Positions 28,707-51,452 of a stretch of 64,000 nt of DNA are shown here, one piece after another. Numbering within the stretch: the first letter of the stretch is position 1; the number at the start of each line of letters is the position of its first letter. Source of the stretch: Haloarcula sp. H-GB4 (GTDB taxonomy: Archaea > Halobacteriota > Halobacteria > Halobacteriales > Haloarculaceae). Under the pieces are notes generated by a model that saw only the letters and a list, made by a program, of their open reading frames with translations, was not told the DNA's origin and searched no databases. Made by a program: the position numbers and the translations under genes. Location: positions 62,001 to 126,000 of the forward strand of contig NZ_JAVDDX010000003.1 of NCBI RefSeq assembly GCF_030848575.1. Direction: 5' to 3'.

Positions 28707-30767
28707 ATGGGCACCAATCAGGACCGAAACCCCCGGGCCGAGCAGACAGTCTGTCCGTACTGTGGCGTCGGCTGTACGATAGAGTACGCGGGCAACGGGA
28801 AGGCAACCGGCACAGCGGGGCCAGTGAACACGAAGGGAGAGATCTGTCCCAAGGGAGGGGCCGCATTCGACGTTGTCGAACACGAGGACCGGCTGACCGA
28901 GCCACTCGTCCGGGAGGGCAGTCGCTTCGTCACCGCATCCTGGGAGGCTGCCCTAGCTCGCGTGACCGACCGACTCACCGAAATCATCGACCAGCACGGG
29001 CCGAACGCCGTCGAGTTCTTTGCCTCGTCGAACTGTACGAACGAGGAGAATTACGTCTTTCAGAAGATTGCGCGGATGCTCGGCACCAACAACGTCGACA
29101 ACTGCGCCCGCCTCTGTCATTCGTCGACCGTGGCCGCGATGAGCGAGCGCCTCGGTGCCGGGGCGATGACGAACACGCTCGATGACCTCGCCGAAACCGA
29201 CTGTCTGCTCGTCACCGGCGCAAATCCGGCCGAACAGCATCCAGTCATTTTCCGTTCGTACTTCTTACCGGCAATTCGCAACGGTGGCACGCTCATTCAT
29301 ATTGACCCGCGCGAGACAGACACGACCGATGCCGCCGACATCCACCTCGACGTTCGCCCCGGATACGATATCCAGCTCCTCAATTCGATGGCGAAAGTCA
29401 TCCTCGATGAGGAACTCGTCGACGAGTCCTTTGTTGAGGAACGGACGACCGGCTACGCGGACCTGACAGCACACCTTGACGATGTCGACGTCGGGTCGGG
29501 TGCCGACGTGGCCGGCGTCGACGCGGAAACCGTTCGGGACGCAGCCCGGGCGTACGCTGAGGCCGATAGTGCGGCGATTGTCACCGGAATGGGGATGAGC
29601 CAGCACACGTCCGGGACCGACAACGTACACGCGCTGTTGAACCTCGCACTGCTGACCGGCAACGTCGGTCGCCCGGGGACCGGCGTGAACCCGCTCCGTG
29701 GCCAGAACAACGTGCAGGGGGCCGGCGACGTCGGAGCGCTTCCCAGCGTGCTTCCCGGCTACGAACCCGTCACGGACCCGGATGCCCGACAGCGAGTCGC
29801 AGACGAGTGGGGCGTCGAGCCGCCGAGCGAACCCGGCCTGACAGAGACGACTGCGACACACCAGTTCGGTGACACGGTCAAAGCTGCAGTCGTCTTCGGT
29901 GAGAACCCCGCTGTCACGGAACCAAACGCCAGTTCTGTCCGGTCCAGTTTCGACGACCTCGATTTCTGCGTCGTCATCGACCTCTTCGAGACTGCAACCG
30001 TCGACCACGCCGATGTGGTGCTCCCGGGAAGCAGTTGGGGGGAGAAAGCGGGAACAGTGACCAACACTGACCGGCGGGTGATGCGGATGCGGCCGAACGC
30101 TGACCTGCCCGGGAACGCTCGCCGTGACCTTGATATCCTCACTGACCTCGGTCAGCGGCTGGTCAACCAGTCAGACGCGTTCGACTACGACGGCCCGGAA
30201 GCGGTGTTCGAGGAGCTAACGCGAGTCAATCCGCTGTACGCCGGCATGAGTTACGACGGCATCGGTGAGAGCTACCAGCGGTGGCCGTTCCCGGCAGACG
30301 CCGATTCCGGAACCGACGTGCTCCATACGGAGACGTTCGCTTCGGGCCAGCAAACCGCTCCGCTTCGCCCGGTCTTGCCGACGCCGCCAGCCGATGCCGT
30401 CTCTGGGGAGCAACTCGTTCTCACGACAGGGCGCGCGCTCCAGCACTTCAACAGCGGCGCACTCACTCGCCGGTCGGAGACGCTCATGCGAATGCGCGGA
30501 GAGGACGTCCTCGAGATCCACCCGGACGACGCTGCCGCTCGGGGCATCGAGGACGGCGATACCGTCGTCGTCGAGAACGACCGAGACAGCGTGACGGTGT
30601 CGGCGGCTGTGACGGCGGCTATTCGGTCCGGAGTCGTGTTCTGCACGTTCCACTATCTGGACCCGCTCGCAAATGCCCTGACCGGCGATGCTCTCGACCC
30701 GGTCGCCAAGATTCCCGAGTACAAGCATTCGGCGGTGCAGGTACGGAAGTCATCGGCGACCACATAG
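28707..30767 (+). CDS. Formate-dehydrogenase-type molybdopterin oxidoreductase
   Basis: A 686-residue catalytic subunit. The [4Fe-4S] ligands are C16, C19, C23 and C47 (CPYCGVGC and ICPKG), with K49 in the electron path. The Mo ligand is C137 next to H138 in NCARLCHSSTVAAM, the Arg-(Sec/Cys)-His arrangement of formate dehydrogenases, here with Cys in place of Sec. A molydopterin dinucleotide-binding domain closes the protein. There is no Tat signal, so it is cytosolic. No electron-transfer subunit is adjacent. Assimilatory nitrate reductase is an alternative, but the C-H motif argues for formate. Confidence 0.84.
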   Translation: MGTNQDRNPRAEQTVCPYCGVGCTIEYAGNGKATGTAGPVNTKGEICPKGGAAFDVVEHEDRLTEPLVREGSRFVTASWEAALARVTDRLTEIIDQHGPNAVEFFASSNCTNEENYVFQKIARMLGTNNVDNCARLCHSSTVAAMSERLGAGAMTNTLDDLAETDCLLVTGANPAEQHPVIFRSYFLPAIRNGGTLIHIDPRETDTTDAADIHLDVRPGYDIQLLNSMAKVILDEELVDESFVEERTTGYADLTAHLDDVDVGSGADVAGVDAETVRDAARAYAEADSAAIVTGMGMSQHTSGTDNVHALLNLALLTGNVGRPGTGVNPLRGQNNVQGAGDVGALPSVLPGYEPVTDPDARQRVADEWGVEPPSEPGLTETTATHQFGDTVKAAVVFGENPAVTEPNASSVRSSFDDLDFCVVIDLFETATVDHADVVLPGSSWGEKAGTVTNTDRRVMRMRPNADLPGNARRDLDILTDLGQRLVNQSDAFDYDGPEAVFEELTRVNPLYAGMSYDGIGESYQRWPFPADADSGTDVLHTETFASGQQTAPLRPVLPTPPADAVSGEQLVLTTGRALQHFNSGALTRRSETLMRMRGEDVLEIHPDDAAARGIEDGDTVVVENDRDSVTVSAAVTAAIRSGVVFCTFHYLDPLANALTGDALDPVAKIPEYKHSAVQVRKSSATT

Positions 30768-31099
30768 ATAGAAAGCGAGTCCGGAGACGCTCTGGAAATA
30801 GTTGAGCGGATCGGATGCGTAGGTCTTGCGAGCGGTGTGCAACCCAGAGAGTGACGACGGTGTGGTTTCATCCTGATTGCTGTGACTGTGTACCAGTACG
30901 ACTGCACGACATGGTGCGGTCGATGCCGAAATGACCTACAGCAGTCACTATGAGATGGCTATCGGTAGACGTAGAGATAGCCTGCAGATTACCAGAACTA
31001 TCGACTCGCTGTAAGGGAGAATAAAACAGTTTCTACGTTTCTCACGGCAGTGGATTAGGCACAATGGTAATCCCACTTGCAACTATAGTTATACGTATG
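30768..31099. other. Intergenic spacer without a recognised gene
   Basis: Roughly 330 bp between the molybdoenzyme gene and a small ORF. The right part is AT-rich (AATAAAACAGTTTCTACG near 31019, CTATAGTTATACG near 31083), which may be the promoter of the next gene. I see no RNA gene or repeat. Confidence 0.4.
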
Positions 31100-31375
31100 A
31101 TGGGCAGTCAAAAGAACCGGAAACTCAGTGCGGCAGTGGTACTCGTTCAGGGCGCCGTAACTGCGCTCTTCCCACAGATCAGTGTCAAACTTATCAAGCG
31201 TATGATCGGGAAGAACTTCGAGAACGCGTCCCAGCTCACGGTGAAGCCAGCGTATCGCCGACAATTACGTGCAGTTGGTGTCGGGATGGTCGCCGCAGCC
31301 GGGACCGATCTTCTGTTGCAGAGCGCTGCGGAGACGGACGAAGGCCCGGTGGCAATTGATGGAGACAGCGAGTAA
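31100..31375 (+). CDS. Small hypothetical protein with hydrophobic segments
   Basis: About 91 residues from ATG 31100 (ATG 31097 is equally possible). The protein is basic and amphipathic, with hydrophobic stretches LSAAVVLVQGAVTALF and AVGVGMVAAAGTDLLL, and an acidic tail. TATA-like sequence stands right before it, suggesting a short leader. I do not recognise the family; a small membrane-associated protein is the best description. Confidence 0.55.
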   Translation: MGSQKNRKLSAAVVLVQGAVTALFPQISVKLIKRMIGKNFENASQLTVKPAYRRQLRAVGVGMVAAAGTDLLLQSAAETDEGPVAIDGDSE

Positions 31376-31435
31376 CGACGGCGGCTACACCGATGGTGGT
31401 GAGTAGGCGCGCTTCTGGAACAGCCTGCAACCAAT

Positions 31436-32545
31436 TCAGTCGTCGCTGTCGACTGTCGCTTCGGTGCCGGCGTCGCGGACCTGTGTCGCTTCGCTCTCCA
31501 CGTTGACGCCTTCCCAGTCGTGGTCCGTGTGGAACCCTTCGCGTTCCTTCGCACTCTGTGCGACACGGATGAACTCTGCTTTGTCGCGGGCCGTATCGAT
31601 GGTATGCCCGCCACAGTAGGAAAGTCCGGAGCGGATGCCAGCACAGAACTCCTCAGCCACGGCGGCGACTGAGCCTTTGTACGGGGTCAGTGCTTCGACC
31701 CCCTCGTCGGCGCTGACGTTGTTCTGCTTGTCATCTCGGTCCTCGGCCGCCGCAGTGGTTGCCATTCCGCGTGAGCGCTTGTAGTGTGTCCCATCGACTT
31801 CGACGACTGCCCCCGGGGCCTCCTCTGTGCCGGCAAAGAGGCTCCCGAGCATCACGGTGTCTGCCCCGGCCATGAGGGCCTTCACTGCATCACCGGACGT
31901 GCGGATTCCGCCGTCCGCGCAGATGGTGACATCCAGATCTTCGGCGGCTGTCGCACAGTCATCGACAGCGGTCAGCTGGGGGACGCCGGCACCCGCGACC
32001 TTCCGGGTGGTACAGTGGGACCCGGGTCCAATACCGACTTTGACACAGTCGGCCCCGGCGGCGGCGAGGTCTTTGACACCCGCGGGTGTCGCGACGTTGC
32101 CGGCGATGATATCAGTGTCAGGAAATTCGTCTGCAAGGGTTTCAACAGCGTCGAGTGCCCGGTCGAGGTGGCCGTGGGCCACATCAACGACGAGCGCATC
32201 GACACCGGCGGCAGTCACGGCCGCGCTCCGTGCGACGTAGTCCTCGTTGATACCGACTGCTGCGCCGATCTGTTCACCCGCTTCTTTCACCTGCTCGACC
32301 TGCTCGGCCTGTTCCTCGGGCGTCAGGAACCGGTGTAGCACCCCGAACCCACCAGACCGTCCAAGCTCGATTGCCAGTTCTGCCTCGGTAACGGTGTCCA
32401 TCGCAGCGGAGACGAGTGGCGTGTCCAGTTCGACGGTCGGAGTAAGCGGCGTCGAAAGGTCGATGTCGCTCCGACTGTCAACCGGTGATCGTTTCGGGAC
32501 GAGAAGAACGTCGCCATAACTCAATCCAGTGCGTAACTCGTTCAT
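31436..32545 (-). CDS. IMP dehydrogenase / GMP reductase family enzyme without CBS domains
   Basis: A 369-residue TIM-barrel enzyme. The catalytic loop [20 protein letters not shown] holds the nucleophilic cysteine, and [20 protein letters not shown] and [14 protein letters not shown] bind the phosphate. CBS domains are absent, which is the length of a GMP reductase, and CTTRK is GMP-reductase-like. The LAGTEEAPG-type loop is IMP-dehydrogenase-like, so I leave both activities open. A C-terminal extension of ~40 acidic residues is present. Confidence 0.85.
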
Positions 32546-32647
32546 ACCCCGCTAATGGAACCCCTCCTAGCACAAAAGTATCTCGGATTAGAGATGCCCC
32601 GCTCGTCCCGGCAACCGCAACTCGTTTCGCATGGCTGGGCTGCCTCA

Positions 32648-32667
32648 TTTTTAGGCCTGGCTAAAAA
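32648..32667. promoter_or_regulatory. Iron-box-like palindrome, distal site
   Basis: TTTTTAG-GCCTGG-CTAAAAA has 7-bp perfect arms around a 6-bp centre. It resembles DtxR/SirR/Idr-type iron-repressor sites (TTAGGC...CTAA). It lies 39-58 bp upstream of the binding-protein ATG. Confidence 0.7.
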
Positions 32668-32682
32668 TCGAAGGATACTTGT

Positions 32683-32704
32683 AATTTTAGGCTGGGCTAA
32701 AATT
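32683..32704. promoter_or_regulatory. Iron-box-like palindrome, proximal site
   Basis: AATTTTAG-GCTGGG-CTAAAATT has 8-bp perfect arms with a 6-bp centre. It ends one base before the ATG at 32706. Its centre is 36 bp from that of the distal site, so the two bracket the expected TATA position and a bound repressor would block initiation. Confidence 0.75.
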
Positions 32705-32705
32705 C

Positions 32706-33968
32706 ATGCTGGAGACTAATCAGGACAAAACGTGGTCGACGCGGAGAGAGTGTGTAAAGTACGGGACCGCGCTGCTGACCACTGGCTCGCTCGCAGGTTG
32801 TACTGGGCTTTCGAGTGGGGGCACCGAATCGGACGAGACCCAAACACAGACTGACCGATCCTATTCAGGGACGATGGCGCCGGTCGGCGACCTCAGACTT
32901 GAATCGAGTCCGGAGACTATTGTCGGCGGGTGGGGGTTTGAGGAGGACATCCTGACTGCACTGGGAGAGGCCGACAAGCTCGTCGCCGCCGAGGGCAACC
33001 AGTTCTGGTTCACCGGCTTCTACGACCAGCTTCCCGGCGTAGACGTCCCTAATCCCGAGTCACTGGAGTTGGTCCGGACAGACGACTGGTCGCTCAGAAC
33101 GGAGGTTCTCTACGAACTCGACCCGGACCTATTCGCTACCGACCCGAACCGGTTCATTTCGTACTACGGTGCTGACGAGGGCGATATCTCCGAGATCAAC
33201 GATTCGATTGGGCCCTTCTTTGGGAACGCCAGCCGCCGCAGACGCGGCGACGACTGGCCCACTTGGCCCGGTGATAAGTCCTACCCCTACTACGATATCC
33301 CCGAATTCGTCAGCAGATACGGAGCACTGCTCGGAAAGTCCGAGACAGCCGCTGCTATCAACACCCTCTACGAGCAGGCGCTACAGGAGATGCGGTCGCG
33401 CGTTCCACCGGCGTCCGACCGGCCGAGCGTCGGATTGCTCAACGCGCAAATAAACCCCGACAACGAGGGGTTCTTCCGTGCCTACAACCCCAGAACTGAG
33501 ATCGACAAGGCATACGGGAAAAAACAGTACCGAGATCTCGGCACTGTCGACGCGTTCGAGGGCGAGTACGATGGCCAGTCCGGGATCCAAGTCGACTACG
33601 AGGCACTACTGGAGGTCGATCCCGACGTGCTCGTGTTCCACTTCGGCGTCAATTACCGCGACTGGAACGGCGAGGATGCGCTCCGAAAGACAGTTGAAGG
33701 GATGCGAGACAGTTCGCTGGGGCAGGAACTCACCGCCGTTCAGGAGGACAACCTCTACGTCGGCGGGTCAGCCTATCAGGGCCCGATCATCAATCTCTTC
33801 CAGACAGAGATGCTTGGAAAACAGCTCTATCCAGACGAATTCGGTGAGTGGCCGGGCGAGATTACCGCTGGCGAGCTTCCGGAAATTCCCGAGAGCGAAC
33901 AGCTATTCGACCGCGAGGAACTCGCGGATATCGTCAGTGAAACGAACAGAGCTGCCGACTCACAGTAA
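32706..33968 (+). CDS. Iron/siderophore-type ABC transporter substrate-binding lipoprotein
   Basis: A 420-residue exported lipoprotein with a Tat-type signal (RR at 13-14) and lipobox SLAGC with C32 lipidated. The mature part has the two-lobed class III binding-protein character (VLYELDPDLFATDPN and YEALLEVDPDVLVFHFG are the usual strand-helix units). Two iron-box-like palindromes directly upstream point to ferric-siderophore or haem uptake repressed by iron. No permease or ATPase gene is adjacent, so it is an orphan that must share a transporter. Cobalamin is an alternative ligand. Confidence 0.84.
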   Translation: MLETNQDKTWSTRRECVKYGTALLTTGSLAGCTGLSSGGTESDETQTQTDRSYSGTMAPVGDLRLESSPETIVGGWGFEEDILTALGEADKLVAAEGNQFWFTGFYDQLPGVDVPNPESLELVRTDDWSLRTEVLYELDPDLFATDPNRFISYYGADEGDISEINDSIGPFFGNASRRRRGDDWPTWPGDKSYPYYDIPEFVSRYGALLGKSETAAAINTLYEQALQEMRSRVPPASDRPSVGLLNAQINPDNEGFFRAYNPRTEIDKAYGKKQYRDLGTVDAFEGEYDGQSGIQVDYEALLEVDPDVLVFHFGVNYRDWNGEDALRKTVEGMRDSSLGQELTAVQEDNLYVGGSAYQGPIINLFQTEMLGKQLYPDEFGEWPGEITAGELPEIPESEQLFDREELADIVSETNRAADSQ

Positions 33969-34029
33969 CAGCAGTTCCCCTCAAAAGCAGGGATAGCAAG
34001 TTTTGCACGCCTGCGCGAAAGCGGATGAC

Positions 34030-34157
34030 GGGTGGCGATGGGCACCGTGGTGTGCCACCCACTGCAGTCAGAGGCACGGATGGGTTCTGGACCCAAGACA
34101 TGGGGTGGGGCGAGTGGGCGCAAAGTAGGAAGCGGCCCAAAGCGGGGACCAGAACCC
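34030..34157 (+). ncRNA. Candidate structured RNA/DNA unit A
   Basis: Hairpin A1 pairs GGGTGGC (34030-34036) with GCCACCC (34054-34060). Long arms GGGTTCTGGACCC (34082-34094) and GGGACCAGAACCC (34145-34157) pair with one mismatch across a G-rich 50-nt insert. The strand is inferred from G-tract direction. An RNA role is not proven. Confidence 0.4.
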
Positions 34158-34280
34158 GTGTAGATGTAATGCACCGTTTGTGATATGCCTTATGCCAACT
34201 CCTAACATAGTTGTAATTTCACGCAATGACTCAGTGCAGTCATCCCCGGAACGCACGGCGTCACCGGTCACAGAAAGGGA

Positions 34281-34414
34281 TGGGACGTTGCTGTGGGGGT
34301 GGGAGAGATGGGGTGCAACGTACCATCGGAAGTCGTCGGTTTCGACGACGGATTCCAGCCCGGAGCAATCGTGTGGGTGAATCCAGCGCGATTGGGCAGG
34401 GCGCAGAACCCACC
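34281..34414 (+). ncRNA. Candidate structured RNA/DNA unit B
   Basis: Hairpin B1 pairs TGGGACGTTGC (34281-34291) with GCAACGTACCA (34315-34325), one mismatch, loop rich in G. GTCGTCG-GTTT-CGACGAC (34332-34349) is a perfect tetraloop hairpin. GTGGGT (34373-34378) can pair with ACCCAC (34408-34413), keeping the position of the long arms of units A and C. A TATA box follows at 34432. Confidence 0.38.
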
Positions 34415-34431
34415 TAGGCCCGATACGAGTG

Positions 34432-34439
34432 TATATAAA
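34432..34439 (+). promoter_or_regulatory. TATA box between units B and C
   Basis: TATATAAA in an otherwise GC-rich stretch matches the archaeal TATA consensus. Transcription would start near 34460 and run into unit C. No gene start follows for more than 2 kb on this strand. Confidence 0.5.
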
Positions 34440-34550
34440 ATGCTTGTGATATCCCCACGCCGTCTGTTGGTTTGATCGCAAACTATTCAATTCTCACCAG
34501 CGTGAGTCCCATCTGATAACGTGAGAAGTACATCCCATTCAACAGCAAAG

Positions 34551-34683
34551 GAATGGTGGGCAGCCGGGGGTGGTGTACACCGCACCATTCAAACTCCGCA
34601 TCCACGACGAGGGGTTCTGGACCCTGATCCTTTGATGAACATGATCGGATTCAGTGGGGGGAGGTGGCGCGGGACCAGAACCC
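34551..34683 (+). ncRNA. Candidate structured RNA/DNA unit C
   Basis: Hairpin C1 pairs GAATGGTG (34551-34558) with CACCATTC (34583-34590); its loop holds GGGGGTGGTGTACACC. Long arms GGGTTCTGGACCC (34612-34624) and GGGACCAGAACCC (34671-34683) repeat those of unit A exactly, while the sequence between them differs. Confidence 0.4.
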
Positions 34684-34812
34684 TATCAAATAATTCATAG
34701 TTGGTATGAAATAACAATTATGACGTTTTGGCCCATTTTATTGGCTCTGCGATCGCTGAGCGTCCGTAATCGCGGCAACGGCGTGGGGGATGACAGCACA
34801 GTAAATAGTGAG

Positions 34813-36768
34813 TTATTCCACGACTTCGAGACCGGTGATCTCAAACCGTGTCCCACCCATCGAGCTCTCAGTTGCGCGAATATCCCAGCCATGGGCGTCA
34901 GCGACTCGTTTGACGATGTTGAGGCCCAGCCCAGTTCCGGATTCGGAAGTCGAGTAGCCAGCCTCGAACACCTTTTCGCGGTCCTCAACGGGGATTCCAG
35001 GGCCGTCGTCTTCGATATAGAATGCGTTGGTGTCTTCAAAAATCCCTCCGACAACGACAGTGACATCTAGGCCTGCGTGATCAATCGTGTTCCTGAACAG
35101 ATTTTCGAGCAGATGCCGAAATTGATCGGTATCAGCTTTGACCAGTGGCTGGGTCTCGGCCTCGTAATCGCAGTATAGTTCGGCCTCGTCTGCAGGGTCA
35201 GATACGAGGTTCCACGCAGCCTCAGCGGTTGCGTCGATCGAAACAGGTTCCAGCGACCCGATCTCTTGTTGCTCCCGTGCTAGCCAGAGAAGGTCCTCAA
35301 CAATGCGTTCCATCCGTGCGGTCGCTGTCTCGATCACAGCAAGGTGATCGCTCGAATGTTCGGCCTGGACGAGCTCCAGCCGACCTTGTATGACAGTTAG
35401 CGGGTTCCGCAGGTCGTGGCTGACAGTTGCAGCAAACTGCTCTAGCTGTTCTTTTTGATCCTGCAGTTCACGTTCACGTCTTGTACGTTCGGAGATGTTT
35501 CGACCAGTGCCGACAAGCCCTATCAAGTCACCGTTCTGATCAGTTAACCGGTCAGCAGTGAACTCATGGGGAACACGCTTCCCTTCTGTGGTACGGAACT
35601 CCGCTTCGATGGTCGAATGCCCAGTTGAAAGTGCTTCCTCTATTGCCCCGGCGACTGCGTCCTGTTCGTCGTCCGGAAAAAGACTGACTGCGTCAAGATT
35701 CGCGAGTTGCTCATCAGTGTACCCGGCCAGCGTTGCGAATTGTTCATTACAGCGCTGGACGTTGCCCGCAGAATCGATGACGTAGAATATGTCCGCGAGT
35801 GAATCGAGTGCCTGGTTGATAAAGCTCCGCTCTGTGCGCAGTTCGTCTCGGATCTTCAGCGAGTGCATGGCGTGCGAGATACTGTTCCCGAGTTCGCCGA
35901 GTAATGCCTGTTCGTCCTCAGCAAAGGCAAACGGACGGGACGAATAAACGCACAGGAGACCGTACAGGGTGCCATCGTATTCTAGCGGAACCGCAGCAGT
36001 GCTTCGATAGCCACGGTCGAGTGCTTCCTCTCGCCAGACCTCGAACGCCGGGTCGTCTTGAATATTCTGTGACGTCGCAATACGTCGTTCCCGGACGGCA
36101 GTGCCTGCAGGACCTCGTCCAGTCGGGGAGTTGTCCGCAGTGACAACAATAGTATCGAGATACGTGTCCTCGGCGCCGGCCCAGGCCTGTGGCTCGATTT
36201 GGTCTGTCTCAGAATTACGCTCACCGATCCATGCGAAACGGTAGGGCTCAGAATTGCTAATGATCTCACAGACACGTGTTTTGATTTCCGATAGCGAGGT
36301 CGCCCGGATGAGAGCCTGGTCAATGTTGCTGACCAGCGCTCGCACTCGTTCAAGTTCGGTAGCGCGCTGATTGGTGCGGTACTGTTCGACGGCGTTTTCG
36401 ATACGATTCGCGAGGAGTTCGTATCGTTCCGTTCCGTGCCCTTTCCGGAGATAGTCGGTTGCACCGGCCGCAATAGCGTCGCTGGCGACCGTTTCGCTTC
36501 CCTCACCGGTGAATAGAATAAACGGTAGATCAGGGTATTCCGCACGGACAGCTTTGAGGAGTTCGATGCCGTCCTTCTCAGGCATCCGGTAGTCGCTGAT
36601 AATACAGTCAACAGAACATGTAGCAAGTCTGTCGAGCCCTTTAGCAGCACTCGCCGCGGTTATGACGTTGAGTTGATCGGATTGCTGTGCAAGTAGTTCC
36701 GATGCCACATCTAAAAAATCCGGTTCATCATCAATATGAAGCACAACGATATTCGACAGCTCTGACAC
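34813..36768 (-). CDS. Hybrid sensor histidine kinase: REC-GAF-PAS-HisKA-HATPase
   Basis: About 651 residues from GTG 36768; a TTG start at 36813 gives 666. The GTG is preferred because TATATATT near 36823-36830 puts the transcript start downstream of the TTG. Domains, numbered in the longer form, are: receiver 22-140 with acceptor D74 (IISDYRMP) and K124; GAF ~165-320; PAS ~330-445; HisKA with H466 in VSHDLRNPL; HATPase ~560-660 with N575, DDGPG and GTGLGL. No membrane segment is seen, so it senses inside the cell. The stimulus is unknown. Confidence 0.88.
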   Translation of the reverse strand: MSELSNIVVLHIDDEPDFLDVASELLAQQSDQLNVITAASAAKGLDRLATCSVDCIISDYRMPEKDGIELLKAVRAEYPDLPFILFTGEGSETVASDAIAAGATDYLRKGHGTERYELLANRIENAVEQYRTNQRATELERVRALVSNIDQALIRATSLSEIKTRVCEIISNSEPYRFAWIGERNSETDQIEPQAWAGAEDTYLDTIVVTADNSPTGRGPAGTAVRERRIATSQNIQDDPAFEVWREEALDRGYRSTAAVPLEYDGTLYGLLCVYSSRPFAFAEDEQALLGELGNSISHAMHSLKIRDELRTERSFINQALDSLADIFYVIDSAGNVQRCNEQFATLAGYTDEQLANLDAVSLFPDDEQDAVAGAIEEALSTGHSTIEAEFRTTEGKRVPHEFTADRLTDQNGDLIGLVGTGRNISERTRRERELQDQKEQLEQFAATVSHDLRNPLTVIQGRLELVQAEHSSDHLAVIETATARMERIVEDLLWLAREQQEIGSLEPVSIDATAEAAWNLVSDPADEAELYCDYEAETQPLVKADTDQFRHLLENLFRNTIDHAGLDVTVVVGGIFEDTNAFYIEDDGPGIPVEDREKVFEAGYSTSESGTGLGLNIVKRVADAHGWDIRATESSMGGTRFEITGLEVVE

Positions 36769-36999
36769 AATATCGATTGTACCTAACTTCGAACCATAAA
36801 GTTGCTGACCCAAGTATCAGAATATATACTCCGATAGGGCCGTCATTTATTTGTTGAATTTCGGCACTATCCGAATGAGTGCGTACAGGCCGCTTGAGAC
36901 GTAGTTAGGTTGGCTGGCACAGATATTATTGCCTATTATAATATCACATATAAGAACTGGCGCAGTGGATTCATAAAAGCTCGATACATAGTTGTGGCA

Positions 37000-39900
37000 A
37001 TGGCCTATGCAGGTGGCGGGACTCCCGATTCCATTCAGGTTTTGTATGTAAACGATGATGGTGACTTTGCTGAATTAGCGCAGACGAAGCTCCTGAGTAT
37101 CTCATCTAGCTTTGACGTCACAACAGTCGGGAGTATCGAGGCTGCTCTCGACTCGCTTGCAACTTCGGCTATCGATTGCGTGGTCACATCGTACTCATTG
37201 CCGGGCGGGACGGGAATCGACCTCCTAGATCGGTTACGAACGGAGCAGTACGAACTACCGACGATCTTGTTTACCGGCCGAGGGAGCGAGCAAATTGCAA
37301 GCGAAGCGACACAGGCGGGGGTCTCCGATTACGTTCCGGTCCACGCGGGCCAGAACAGTTTCGAGTTGCTCGCGAGCCGCATCCAGACGCTCACCGAGGC
37401 CGCCCACAAACAAGCGGCCGCCGAGCGACTGTCCGACCGCTTCCAACGAACGCTGGAGCGGGCAACTGACGGGATTTATGCCGTCGATAGCGAGTGGCGG
37501 ATCGAATATATAAACGAGAAGATGGCAAAGCGCGTCGACCGCGAACCGGAAACTATCGTCGGGACGATTATCTGGGAAGAGTTCCCCTCGATAGTTGGAA
37601 CGGAACTCGAAGAGAAATACCGAACCGCGATGGAGACCGGCGACCCGGTGTCGTTCGAACAGTACCTTGGCGAACCGTTGGATTACTGGGTCGAAATACG
37701 AGTCTTTCCCGACGATGACGGTCTGACCGTCTTTTCACGGGAAACCACGGCAGAGCGGGAGCGAGAACTGGAGTTAGAGCGCAGTGAAGCGATCCTCGAA
37801 AACATCCACGACGTTGTATTTGTTCTCGATGATGAAGGGACAATCGAGTTCGCGAACACCGCTTCGAGACGACTCGTGACCGGGAAAGAATCGACCAAGA
37901 TAACGGGACAGCAGTTGGAAGCAGTCGTGGGAGACCGGATGTCCAAGTCCGATGCCGAGCGGTTCACAGCGGCGGTCGAATCGACAGTCACTGATATCGA
38001 GAGCGACGGTGGCGTTACAGGGTTGTACGACGCAGACCTGCAAATCGATGTGACGACCGGCGGTGGCGAGCGGACGTTAGACGTCCGCGTCACACCGTTC
38101 CGGGGCGACGATGATCGGCAGGTGCTCGTCGTTGCCCGTGACATCACCGAACAGAGCATGGCAAAGCGACAGTTAGAGCAGGAGCGGGATGCACTTCGGG
38201 AACTCCAGACTGTCATGGCAAAGGGTGATATCGCTGCTGAGGCGCGCCTCGAAGAATTGCTCGAACTTGGCTGCCAGACGCTCGGGCTCGACATCGGAAT
38301 CGTCTCACACGTTCAGGGCAATGATTACACGGTCAGGGCAGTACACGCCCCGGATACGGAAATCGAATCCGGGGACCTGTTCGACCTCGAATCGACGTAC
38401 TGCGCGGAGGTGGTCGGGACAGATGCAGTCTGCTCGTTCGCAGATGCTGTCGCTGATGGCAAAGAAACCCACCCTGCGTATCGTGAGTTGGAGCTGGAAT
38501 CGTATATCGGGGTGCCACTCATCGTCGATGGAGTCAGGTACGGGACGGTCAATTTTTCGAGTCCGACAACGCGAGTCGCGCCCTTCGGAGCGCTTGAGCA
38601 AACGTTCGTGGAGCTACTCTCGGAGCTCGTGAGCGCCGAAATATCGCGGATGCAGGACCAGACTGACCTCAAGCGCCAGGAATTCCTGTTCGAGCGGGTA
38701 CAGAATATCGCAGATATCGGTGTGTGGGAGTATTTCCCGTCGATAGACAGCCTCGACTGGTCTGACGGCGTTCGTCGGATTCACGGCGTTGACGACGAGT
38801 ATGACCCGTCACTCGATGACGCGCTTGGTTTTTATCACCCTGACGACCGAGAAAAGATTTCGCAGGCAGTCGAGCAGACGATTGCGGACCGAGAACCGTA
38901 CGACATCGATCTCCGGATTGTGCGCACTGATGGCGACGTGCGCGACGTTCGGGCGTGGGGAGAACGCGTCGACGACCCACAGGACGATGAGCCCGTGCTT
39001 CGAGGCGTTTTTCAGGATATCACGGAGCGAAAAGCCCAGGAACGAGCGCATCAGGAACTTGCTGAGGAGTACGAGGCACTGCTCAATAGTTCAGGTGACG
39101 CCATATTCATGCTCGATGTCGATACGACTGGTAACGATCCAGTGTTCGAGTTTGCGCGACTCAGCCCCGGCTACGAGTCACAGACAGGTCTCACGACTGA
39201 CGAGGTTCGAGGGGAAACACCACGGGAGATCTTCGGTGACGAGCGTGGTGCCGAACTCGCGGCGAACTACACTCGTTGTTTCGAGGAGCGTGCGCCGATC
39301 TCGTATCGGGAAGAGCTGGACATCGCTGACGACGCGCGGTTCTGGGACACGAGCCTCGCACCAGTTATGCTCGGCGATGAGATCGTCCGGATCGTCGGTA
39401 TCGCCCGCAACGTAACCGAACAGGTCGACCGACAACGCAAACTCGAAACGACGAACCAGCGACTTGAATCACTCATCGAAGCGACACCGCTCACTGTCAT
39501 GGAAATCGACACAGACGGGACGGTCATCCGCTGGAACGATGGGGCCGAGAATATGTTCGGCTGGTCACGGGCGGAGGTGCTTGGCGAGGGCAATCCGATG
39601 GTCCCGGATGAGCAGCAGGCTGAATTTGAGTCCCACCGACAGCGCGTTTTGAGCGGCGATCAAATCAGGGGGAAGGAAGTACAACGGAAGACGAAGGCGG
39701 GTGAGGAACTAGAGTTGCTCCTGTCGGCTGCACCAATCACCGCTCCCGACGGAGAGATAACGAGCGTACTGGCTGTTCTAGAGGATATCACTGAACAGAA
39801 GCAGTTAGAGTCGAAGCTCCGCTCACTGCAGGAAACAGCACAGCGGCTCAGTGGCGCACAGTCGAGTGCCGAAATCGGCGACATCGCTATTGAGGCTGCT

Positions 39901-49457: not shown

Positions 49458-51452
49458 ATGGGCGGCCGGCGGGTCGGTGTCGACGTCGGTGGAACCTTCA
49501 CTGACGTGACGCTGTCGCTCGATGGGGAGCTCGTGACCGCGAAAGTCCCGAGCACTGAAGACCAGAGCGAGGGCGTTATCGCCGGGATCGAGAAGGCCTG
49601 CGAAGCGGCTGATATCGACCCTGAGACCGTGAGCGAGTTCTCTCATGCGATGACCGTCTCGGTCAACGCACTGCTCGAAGAGGACGGCGCAAAGACCGCA
49701 CTCGTCACGACAGACGGGTTCCGGGACGTTCTGGAGATCGGTCGGCAGGACCGCCCGTCGCTGTACGACCTGTCGGCCGAAAAGCCGACACCGTTGGTTC
49801 CCCGCCGCCGCCGCTTCGAAGTGTCCGAACGGACGATCACCGACGGTATCGAACAGCCCGTCGACGAGGACGAAGTCCGGGCAATCGCCGAGCAGCTACG
49901 CGAGATGGATGTCGAGTCTGTCGCCGTCTCGCTCTTGCACGCGTACGCACACCCCGAAAATGAAACACGCGTCGCAGACATCCTGCGGGATGAACTCGAC
50001 GTGCCCGTCTCGGCCTCGCACGAAGTCCTCGCCGAGTTCCGCGAGTACGAACGAACGTCGACGACAGCCGTCGACGCCTACGTACGGCCGGCGATTGACC
50101 ACTACGTCAGCCGTCTGACCGACCGTGCGCGGGACCTCGGCGTTCCACAGCCCCGAATTATGCAGGCGAACGGCGGTATCACCGACACTGCTACCGTCAG
50201 ACGGAACGCCGTGACAACCGTCCTTTCGGGCCCTGCCGCCGGGGTCGTTGGGGCAGGGTCGATGGCGTCTGAGGAACAGGACGGGCTAGTCACGTTCGAT
50301 ATGGGTGGGACCTCTAGTGACGTTAGTCTCGTCCGCGACGGTGAAGCGGAACGGACGACAGAGGGCGTCATCAACGAGCGGCCGATCAAGACACCGATGG
50401 TCGACGTCGAAACAGTCGGTGCAGGTGGCGGGTCCATCGCCTGGGTCGACGCCGGGGGCGCACTCCGAATCGGCCCGCGTTCCGCCGGAGCTACCCCCGG
50501 TCCAGCCTGCTACGGGGAAGGCGGAACTGAGCCGACCGTCACTGACGCGAATCTCGTGCTGGGCTATATCGGCGAAAGCACAAGTCTGGGTGGTGAACTC
50601 TCACTCGATGCGGATGCCGCCTACGACGCGCTTGCGGACCTCGCCGACGAGGCGGGTCTCGGTGGGCCTCTGGAAGCCGCCCGTGGCGTCTACCGCGTCG
50701 CGAACGCGAACATGACCAGAGCCATTCGCTCCGTGACCGTCGAGCGTGGGTACGACCCGCGGAAGTTCGGGCTCGCCGCGTTCGGGGGTGCCGGGCCAAT
50801 GCACGCGGCGGCAATCGCGGACAGCCTCGATATCGATCGAGTGGTGATTCCGCGCGCTTCAGGCGTGCTGTCGGCATACGGTTTGCTCGCAGCTGACGAG
50901 AAGCGCGACGCAGTACGGACGTATCAGCGCTCGCTCGACGCGGTCGACCCCGACGAGGTCGACACAGTCTACGAGGAGTTGTCCGAAGAACTTCTGGCTG
51001 AGGTTAGCGACCGCGAGGCAGCGACAGTGCGACACTCAGCCGACCTCCGGTACGCCGGCCAGAGTTTCGAACTTACCGTAGACGTCGACCGGCCGTTCGA
51101 CACCGCGGACGCCCGCGAGCGTTTCGGGTCAGCCCACGAGTCCGCGTACGGCTATCGAGCGGACGAGTCGGTCGACCTGGTGAACTGTCGCGTGACGACG
51201 ACCGTCGAACGGAGCGCGCCGCCGGTCAAGTACACTGCCGAAGGCGACCCACAGAAGGGCTCTCGGGAGGCGGTGTTCGCCGACGAGGTCCGCGAAACCC
51301 CGGTCTACGAGCGAGCGAAACTGCAACCACAGAATAGCATCGACGGCCCCGCGATTGTCGAGGGCGATGAGAGCACAATCGTCATCCCACCGACGTGGAA
51401 CGTCCAGGTGCGCGATGACGGGACACTGACAGCGGCGGTGAGCGACACATGA
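49458..51452 (+). CDS. hyuA: Hydantoinase/5-oxoprolinase subunit A
   Basis: A 664-residue ATP-dependent amidohydrolase subunit. It opens with the ASKHA phosphate motif GVDVGGTFTDVTLS and carries the hydantoinase A core QANGGITDTATVRRNAVTTV, GGTSSDVSLV and KFGLAAFGGAGPMHAAAIA. With HyuB it cleaves 5-oxoproline or hydantoins with ATP; N-methylhydantoinase and acetone carboxylase are relatives. It starts directly after the transporter stop and overlaps hyuB by four bases. Confidence 0.9.
   Translation: MGGRRVGVDVGGTFTDVTLSLDGELVTAKVPSTEDQSEGVIAGIEKACEAADIDPETVSEFSHAMTVSVNALLEEDGAKTALVTTDGFRDVLEIGRQDRPSLYDLSAEKPTPLVPRRRRFEVSERTITDGIEQPVDEDEVRAIAEQLREMDVESVAVSLLHAYAHPENETRVADILRDELDVPVSASHEVLAEFREYERTSTTAVDAYVRPAIDHYVSRLTDRARDLGVPQPRIMQANGGITDTATVRRNAVTTVLSGPAAGVVGAGSMASEEQDGLVTFDMGGTSSDVSLVRDGEAERTTEGVINERPIKTPMVDVETVGAGGGSIAWVDAGGALRIGPRSAGATPGPACYGEGGTEPTVTDANLVLGYIGESTSLGGELSLDADAAYDALADLADEAGLGGPLEAARGVYRVANANMTRAIRSVTVERGYDPRKFGLAAFGGAGPMHAAAIADSLDIDRVVIPRASGVLSAYGLLAADEKRDAVRTYQRSLDAVDPDEVDTVYEELSEELLAEVSDREAATVRHSADLRYAGQSFELTVDVDRPFDTADARERFGSAHESAYGYRADESVDLVNCRVTTTVERSAPPVKYTAEGDPQKGSREAVFADEVRETPVYERAKLQPQNSIDGPAIVEGDESTIVIPPTWNVQVRDDGTLTAAVSDT

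Follow-up and report, generated by a model that had tools for sequence, protein, structure and literature searches.

Three tandem predicted small RNA genes in Haloarcula belong to an apparently new RNA family, one type of which is complementary to the rosR start codon

We found that an 844 bp intergenic gap of Haloarcula sp. H-GB4 (positions 33969-34812) holds three structured units, A, B, and C. Each is very probably a separate non-coding RNA gene of ~135-147 nt, encoded on the minus strand and preceded by its own predicted archaeal promoter. The array is best explained as a conserved, stand-alone member of an RNA family found in plasmid-like modules of relatives, and the three RNAs are probably base-pairing regulators. 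We put the probability of this whole reading, tandem minus-strand RNA genes whose products act by base-pairing in trans, at roughly 0.6. The family is apparently new, may link mobile replicons to RosR, and offers a testable case of archaeal post-transcriptional control; few archaeal small RNAs can be assigned a structure and a candidate target as well as a family. All coordinates refer to the 64,000 nt stretch analyzed here (the window), unless a locus label is given.

An intergenic array of three units

The array and its flanking genes are arranged as follows (P1, P2, and P3 are helices; R1 is a covariance model built from C-type units only).

32706-33968, plus strand: substrate-binding-protein gene, flanking the array
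34020-34164, minus strand: predicted RNA gene A (P1-P3); R1, with no A unit in it, matches at E 8e-6; P1 counted in 15 sequences
34271-34418, minus strand: predicted RNA gene B (P1-P2-P3); R1, with no B unit in it, matches at E 7.5e-11; P2 and P3 counts; P1 with 12 G-U and 0 A-C cells
34544-34690, minus strand: predicted RNA gene C (P1-P2-P3); R1, with this sequence inside the model, matches at E 9e-29; orthologues in nearly all arrays; covariation
34813-36813, minus strand: histidine-kinase gene, flanking the array

The initial annotation had described three hairpin units and favored tandem structured RNAs. We recovered the units at the same positions, spaced 254 and 272 nt apart, with the arms GGGTTCTGGACCC/GGGACCAGAACCC of A and C exact and with the short hairpins and G-rich loops it had named; the pairing GTGGGT/ACCCAC that it proposed for B is disrupted in most orthologues. 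Since the C-only model R1 also matches B and A, the three units are homologous.

A DNA search returned the array at 72-86% identity in at least 12 genomes of the genus, plus copies elsewhere. Across nine aligned orthologous arrays, mean column identity was 93%, 93%, and 90% for A, B, and C, versus 78%, 83%, and 84% for the intervening and following sequence. The occurrence of orthologous arrays in so many genomes, together with the higher conservation of units than of spacers, indicates that the units did not arise by chance. We observed no conserved reading frame and rejected protein-coding units, since the lengths of the units fall in all three phases and, of the 42 gaps in unit columns, 32 have a length not divisible by 3. 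What lies downstream of the minus-strand array is the 3' end of the plus-strand gene at 32706-33968, an arrangement that does not fit a cis-regulatory leader or riboswitch. At one orthologous locus (L033, G014:C48), the substrate-binding-protein gene and unit C have been lost, and A and B stay beside an IMP-dehydrogenase-like gene.

The units are very probably read from the minus strand

Wobble cells in the helices were strongly stranded, with 82 G-U on the minus strand versus 17 that are A-C there and G-U only on the plus strand (cells, here and below, are counts of sequences and not of independent events). P1 of B, hidden on the plus strand, is shared with A and C on the minus strand only, because A-C mismatches turn into G-U pairs there. 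Measured against shuffles, the folding z-scores of C, B, and A were -2.8, -4.6, and -2.0 on the minus strand versus -1.8, -2.2, and -1.4 on the plus strand. Wobble bias, z-scores, and promoter position (see below) led us to reject a plus-strand RNA, and the predicted RNA strand is the minus strand. The initial annotation had taken the plus strand; the hairpin with which it began each unit is, once read on the minus strand, the 3' hairpin with its C-rich loop.

The same evidence bears on a DNA-level feature, such as protein-binding inverted repeats or cruciforms, in place of an RNA. Inverted repeats exist on whichever strand is read, but a wobble bias of 82 to 17 and a promoter-like box ahead of each unit at a fixed spacing leave this explanation with a close to negligible probability.

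Conserved helices and covariation

The collected units could be sorted into three types, corresponding to A, B, and C. P1, a long hairpin with a variable insert, is common to all three types on the minus strand (GGGTTCTGG...CCAGAACCC); P2 (GTCGTC...GACGAC) is short and present in B and C; P3, the hairpin at the 3' end, has a C-rich loop and is found in all types. In A, the segment CGUGCCUCUGAC stands between P1 and P3. The predicted elements, all on the minus strand, are given below.

34671-34683, minus strand: P1 5' arm of C, pairing with 34612-34624
34612-34624, minus strand: P1 3' arm of C, pairing with 34671-34683
34583-34590, minus strand: P3 5' arm of C, pairing with 34551-34558 around the C-rich loop; A-U, G-U, and G-C are all present at two pairs
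34551-34558, minus strand: P3 3' arm of C, included in the C-type covariation counts
34399-34411, minus strand: P1 5' arm of B, pairing with 34350-34361
34350-34361, minus strand: P1 3' arm of B, pairing with 34399-34411
34332-34349, minus strand: P2 hairpin of B, from the B-type pairing counts
34279-34327, minus strand: P3 hairpin of B with C-rich loop; two pairs altered on both sides
34145-34157, minus strand: P1 5' arm of A, pairing with 34082-34094
34082-34094, minus strand: P1 3' arm of A, pairing with 34145-34157
34067-34078, minus strand: conserved CGUGCCUCUGAC of A, unpaired in the fold; it complements both the X RNAs and the start region of rosR (see below)
34030-34060, minus strand: P3 hairpin of A, with plus-strand arms GGGTGGC/GCCACCC

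A single RNAalifold alignment of all types together gave no consensus structure because the types align poorly, and the types were therefore treated apart. In C-type units, 96.8% of cells were paired; six pairs were altered on both sides, a count reached by 1 of 500 shuffles, and 14 cells were altered on both sides, a count reached by none of 500. Sliding the 3' partners out of register cut C-type pairing to 26-50%. Covariation in B-type units was modest (two pairs altered on both sides, six cells, 9 of 500 shuffles). Tandem structured RNAs are thus supported, with homologues in many Haloarcula genomes and significant covariation in the C-type.

Predicted promoters and termination

We aligned 58 units of all types at GGTTC and observed T at -30 to -27 (71-86%) and a BRE-like A at -35 (79%). 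These positions correspond to archaeal TATA and BRE spacing for a start at the foot of P1, with the predicted RNA start near GGGTTCTG.

34432-34440, minus strand: strong TATA box of B, TTTTATATA
34709-34714, minus strand: TATA-like box of C, TTATTT, at the matching position in the alignment
34183-34188, minus strand: weak TATA-like box of A, at the matching position in the alignment; A-type boxes are the weakest

The strong TATA box that had been noted at 34432, between B and C, is present, but it is best read as the promoter of B on the minus strand and not of C, since on that strand it occupies -30 to -27 relative to the 5' end of B. The units show features expected of independent small RNA genes, namely a predicted promoter for each at archaeal spacing, a conserved structure with covariation in the C-type and more weakly in the B-type, and no conserved frame. 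Termination is the least certain feature: TTT within 12 nt after P3 was moderately frequent in B (43%) and C (41%) and rare in A.

A family confined to part of one genus

A covariance search of 146 genomes of the family returned matches in 15, all in the genus of the window, with 1-19 copies each and ~120 copies in all. Among 391 genomes of the class, the only matches outside the genus were five at E 8e-4 to 8e-3, which we took as chance. The predicted RNA family is restricted to part of Haloarcula; a haloarchaeal scope, as first proposed, is too broad. The window's own genome carries one further C-type unit at another site. This second copy adjoins a broken remnant that resembles pieces of a nitrate-reductase/molybdopterin-type gene (L002:899-1374), beside a phosphonate transporter operon.

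Rfam 15 gave no match up to E 5 for window positions 30000-38000 and no gathering match in three further loci; a search of known RNA families in three module loci returned CRISPR repeats and one sub-threshold match only. Neither a report of the family nor a small RNA acting on rosR was found in the open-licence literature, and the family is unannotated on plasmids of Haloarcula marismortui and H. hispanica. In H. hispanica ATCC 33960, the orthologous array occupies ~50424-51193 of a 405,816 bp plasmid. The 400 kb contig that carries the window resembles H. marismortui plasmid pNG700, on which the array has similar neighboring genes and coincides with no annotated feature. The family had no match in phage records and the module protein p99 (see below) had none in phages or viral contigs, and a viral origin was rejected; by a rough count, three exact 17-mers in viral contigs were not above chance. 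Identical RNA match scores in two species (G030 and G014; L087/L090 and L088/L089) suggest recent transfer of arrays between species.

Complementarity of unit A to the rosR start codon

The A-type 12-mer CGUGCCUCUGAC was invariant in 14 of 15 units, and a chromosomal gene carries its exact complement at the start codon, ATG TCA GAG GCA CAA. The product of this gene is RosR, which matched solved RosR structures at E 2e-44 (PDB) and was present in 111 of 116 class genomes sampled. Published work connects RosR with the control of oxidative stress in Halobacterium and notes that species differ in the role it plays (PMC3443676, PMC5892119, PMC12482152). A units of the second array match rosR over 13 nt, and window A matches it over 11 nt. 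The start nucleotides ATGTCAGAGGCACAA were exact in 19 of 24 species from five families, one or two bases off in the others, and followed by codons that diverge; these 24 species were taken from the closest matches and so are biased towards similarity. This near-invariance across five haloarchaeal families can be seen, for example, at L200 (G000:C1:297750-298106, minus strand).

A rough count (4000 genes, 20 positions each) gives a chance of ~0.005 that a 12-mer meets some start region, and the rosR match is therefore suggestive and not proof. The AT-rich first codons of rosR could also be kept for translation alone. Furthermore, the sense 12-mer TGTCAGAGGCAC was strongly enriched in genomes of the family, with up to 20 occurrences versus 0 for a reversed control, so A may have other partners, or the motif may bind protein. 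The genomes concerned include G056, G055, G053, and G003 among other Haloarculaceae, and the copies often sit within intergenic hairpin loops. On balance, rosR is the leading candidate target of A, an assignment we make only tentatively.

We propose that the unpaired conserved segments of these RNAs would pair with other RNAs in trans. In this mechanism, A would pair with the start codon of the host rosR mRNA (AUGUCAGAGGCAC) and block its translation.

Plasmid-like modules in related genomes

At many other loci we observed a recurrent order: a 71-aa gene is followed by a 99-aa gene (p99), then by one to five RNA units oriented away from it, and finally by a PadR-type gene that faces the array; loci having the p99 and PadR proteins show this arrangement, with p99 and PadR on one strand and the RNAs on the other. 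The module PadR is a RosR-like paralogue (PDB match E 1e-18). Some module loci have Orc1/Cdc6 replication genes nearby, as well as cargo such as OLD/Gabija-like ATPases, and the module therefore looks plasmid-like and partly integrated. Several further genus members have PadR beside p99, separated by ~40-140 bp with no RNA array between them.

Haloarcula modules of ~5 kb each (L101, L091, L092, L093, L098, L105, and others) comprise 311-aa, 71-aa, and 99-aa genes, the RNA array, the RosR-like PadR, small winged-helix genes, and 98-aa and 83-aa genes; beyond these lies variable cargo including AAA/OLD-like ATPases, with Orc1/Cdc6 near some. On pNG400, a CRISPR array of ~25 repeats (L091:14013-15630) follows soon after an RNA module, and cas6 is annotated downstream.

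The window genome has no p99, and its array therefore stands alone; an RNA of mobile modules has apparently been retained by the host after loss of the module proteins. Could such an array be a mobile-element remnant, a plasmid module minus its protein genes and without present function? A protein-bearing module is indeed present elsewhere in the genus, and some loci have decayed (L148 has a broken PadR and L039 a p99 fragment). However, the array occupies the same site in at least 12 genomes with units more conserved than spacers, pairing is kept through sequence changes, and promoters are kept, and we consider a functionless remnant highly improbable.

Several modules also carry two additional structured elements, X and Y, that lie on the same strand; in both, the helices beside invariant segments vary with pairing kept. 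The invariant segments of X (UGUCAGAGGCA) and Y (UGCCUCUGAC) are mutually complementary. X and Y were found at L101:10622-10870, L122, L123, L128, L126, and L148:1462-1709, and also in genus members without A/B/C arrays. In the mechanism proposed above, the module X RNA, in which this rosR sequence recurs, could serve as a decoy. A fuller scheme would have a plasmid-borne system in which A and Y antisense RNAs shut off rosR, the X decoy relieves this, and the module RosR-like PadR takes over, with the window array as a host-domesticated copy kept after module loss; we regard this scheme as doubtful. Both the module context and the rosR complementarity are invisible from the window alone.

An antisense action against the p99 Shine-Dalgarno of incoming or resident modules, as a means of plasmid control or exclusion, was suggested by the strong GGGAGGTGG site of p99, by the CCA(C/U)(C/U)UCCC carried in the P1 insert, and by GCGCCACCUCCC of window C, a perfect 12 nt complement of one p99 leader (L098). 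C-rich sequence readily pairs with G-rich sequence, however, and against shuffled leaders the pairing reached 0.05 in only 2 of 10 loci. As a target of C, the p99 Shine-Dalgarno was striking by eye and not significant overall, failing in 8 of the 10, and we judge an antisense role against p99 improbable.

RNAs of the same structure and strand might instead work as a titration device or a scaffold, with their C-rich P3 loops and the 12-mer binding a protein, for example p99, PadR, or one of the host. The conserved loops vary little within each type, the 12-mer recurs in hairpin loops, and multi-copy arrays fit titration. The model of p99 is reminiscent of a small SH3/KOW-like barrel, although no structural match was significant, and p99 had no family match. 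We consider protein binding rather unlikely as the mode of action: the array is kept in a window genome that lacks p99, and the complementarity between X and Y, like that with the rosR start, would be left unexplained. Base-pairing in trans stays our preferred reading.

Relation to known RNA systems

Qrr and OmrA/B are tandem redundant bacterial small RNAs encoded by several related genes that adjoin one another and have individual promoters. The Haloarcula array shares this adjacency and its separate predicted promoters; unlike those systems, it is archaeal, its units are far more diverged, and it occurs both stand-alone and inside mobile modules. ToxIN, a type III toxin-antitoxin system, has tandem RNA units beside a small protein gene on mobile DNA, and the antitoxin array of this type consists of short near-identical tandem repeats plus a ToxN-like nuclease. 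Haloarcula modules likewise combine tandem RNA units with a neighboring small protein gene, but these units are long, diverged, and separately promoted, and p99 matched neither ToxN nor any family, so that the arrays do not conform to the type III pattern.

CreTA RNA toxin-antitoxin modules have been studied in Haloarcula hispanica (PMC8501985). They resemble the present case in genus, in involving small RNAs, and in the RNA-based regulation that we propose; unlike CreTA, the A/B/C-type arrays have no CRISPR-repeat-like element or cas gene within them. Trans-acting, intergenic, and independently transcribed small RNAs that act on regulator or transporter mRNAs are represented in archaea by sRNA132 of Haloferax volcanii and sRNA162 of Methanosarcina mazei (PMC6560208, PMC3510493). 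The units described here differ from both in being three structured tandem paralogues that are multi-copy and tied to a plasmid-like module, with no Rfam relation found and an action that is here only proposed. They are similar to sRNA132 and sRNA162 in that they are intergenic and have their own predicted promoters.
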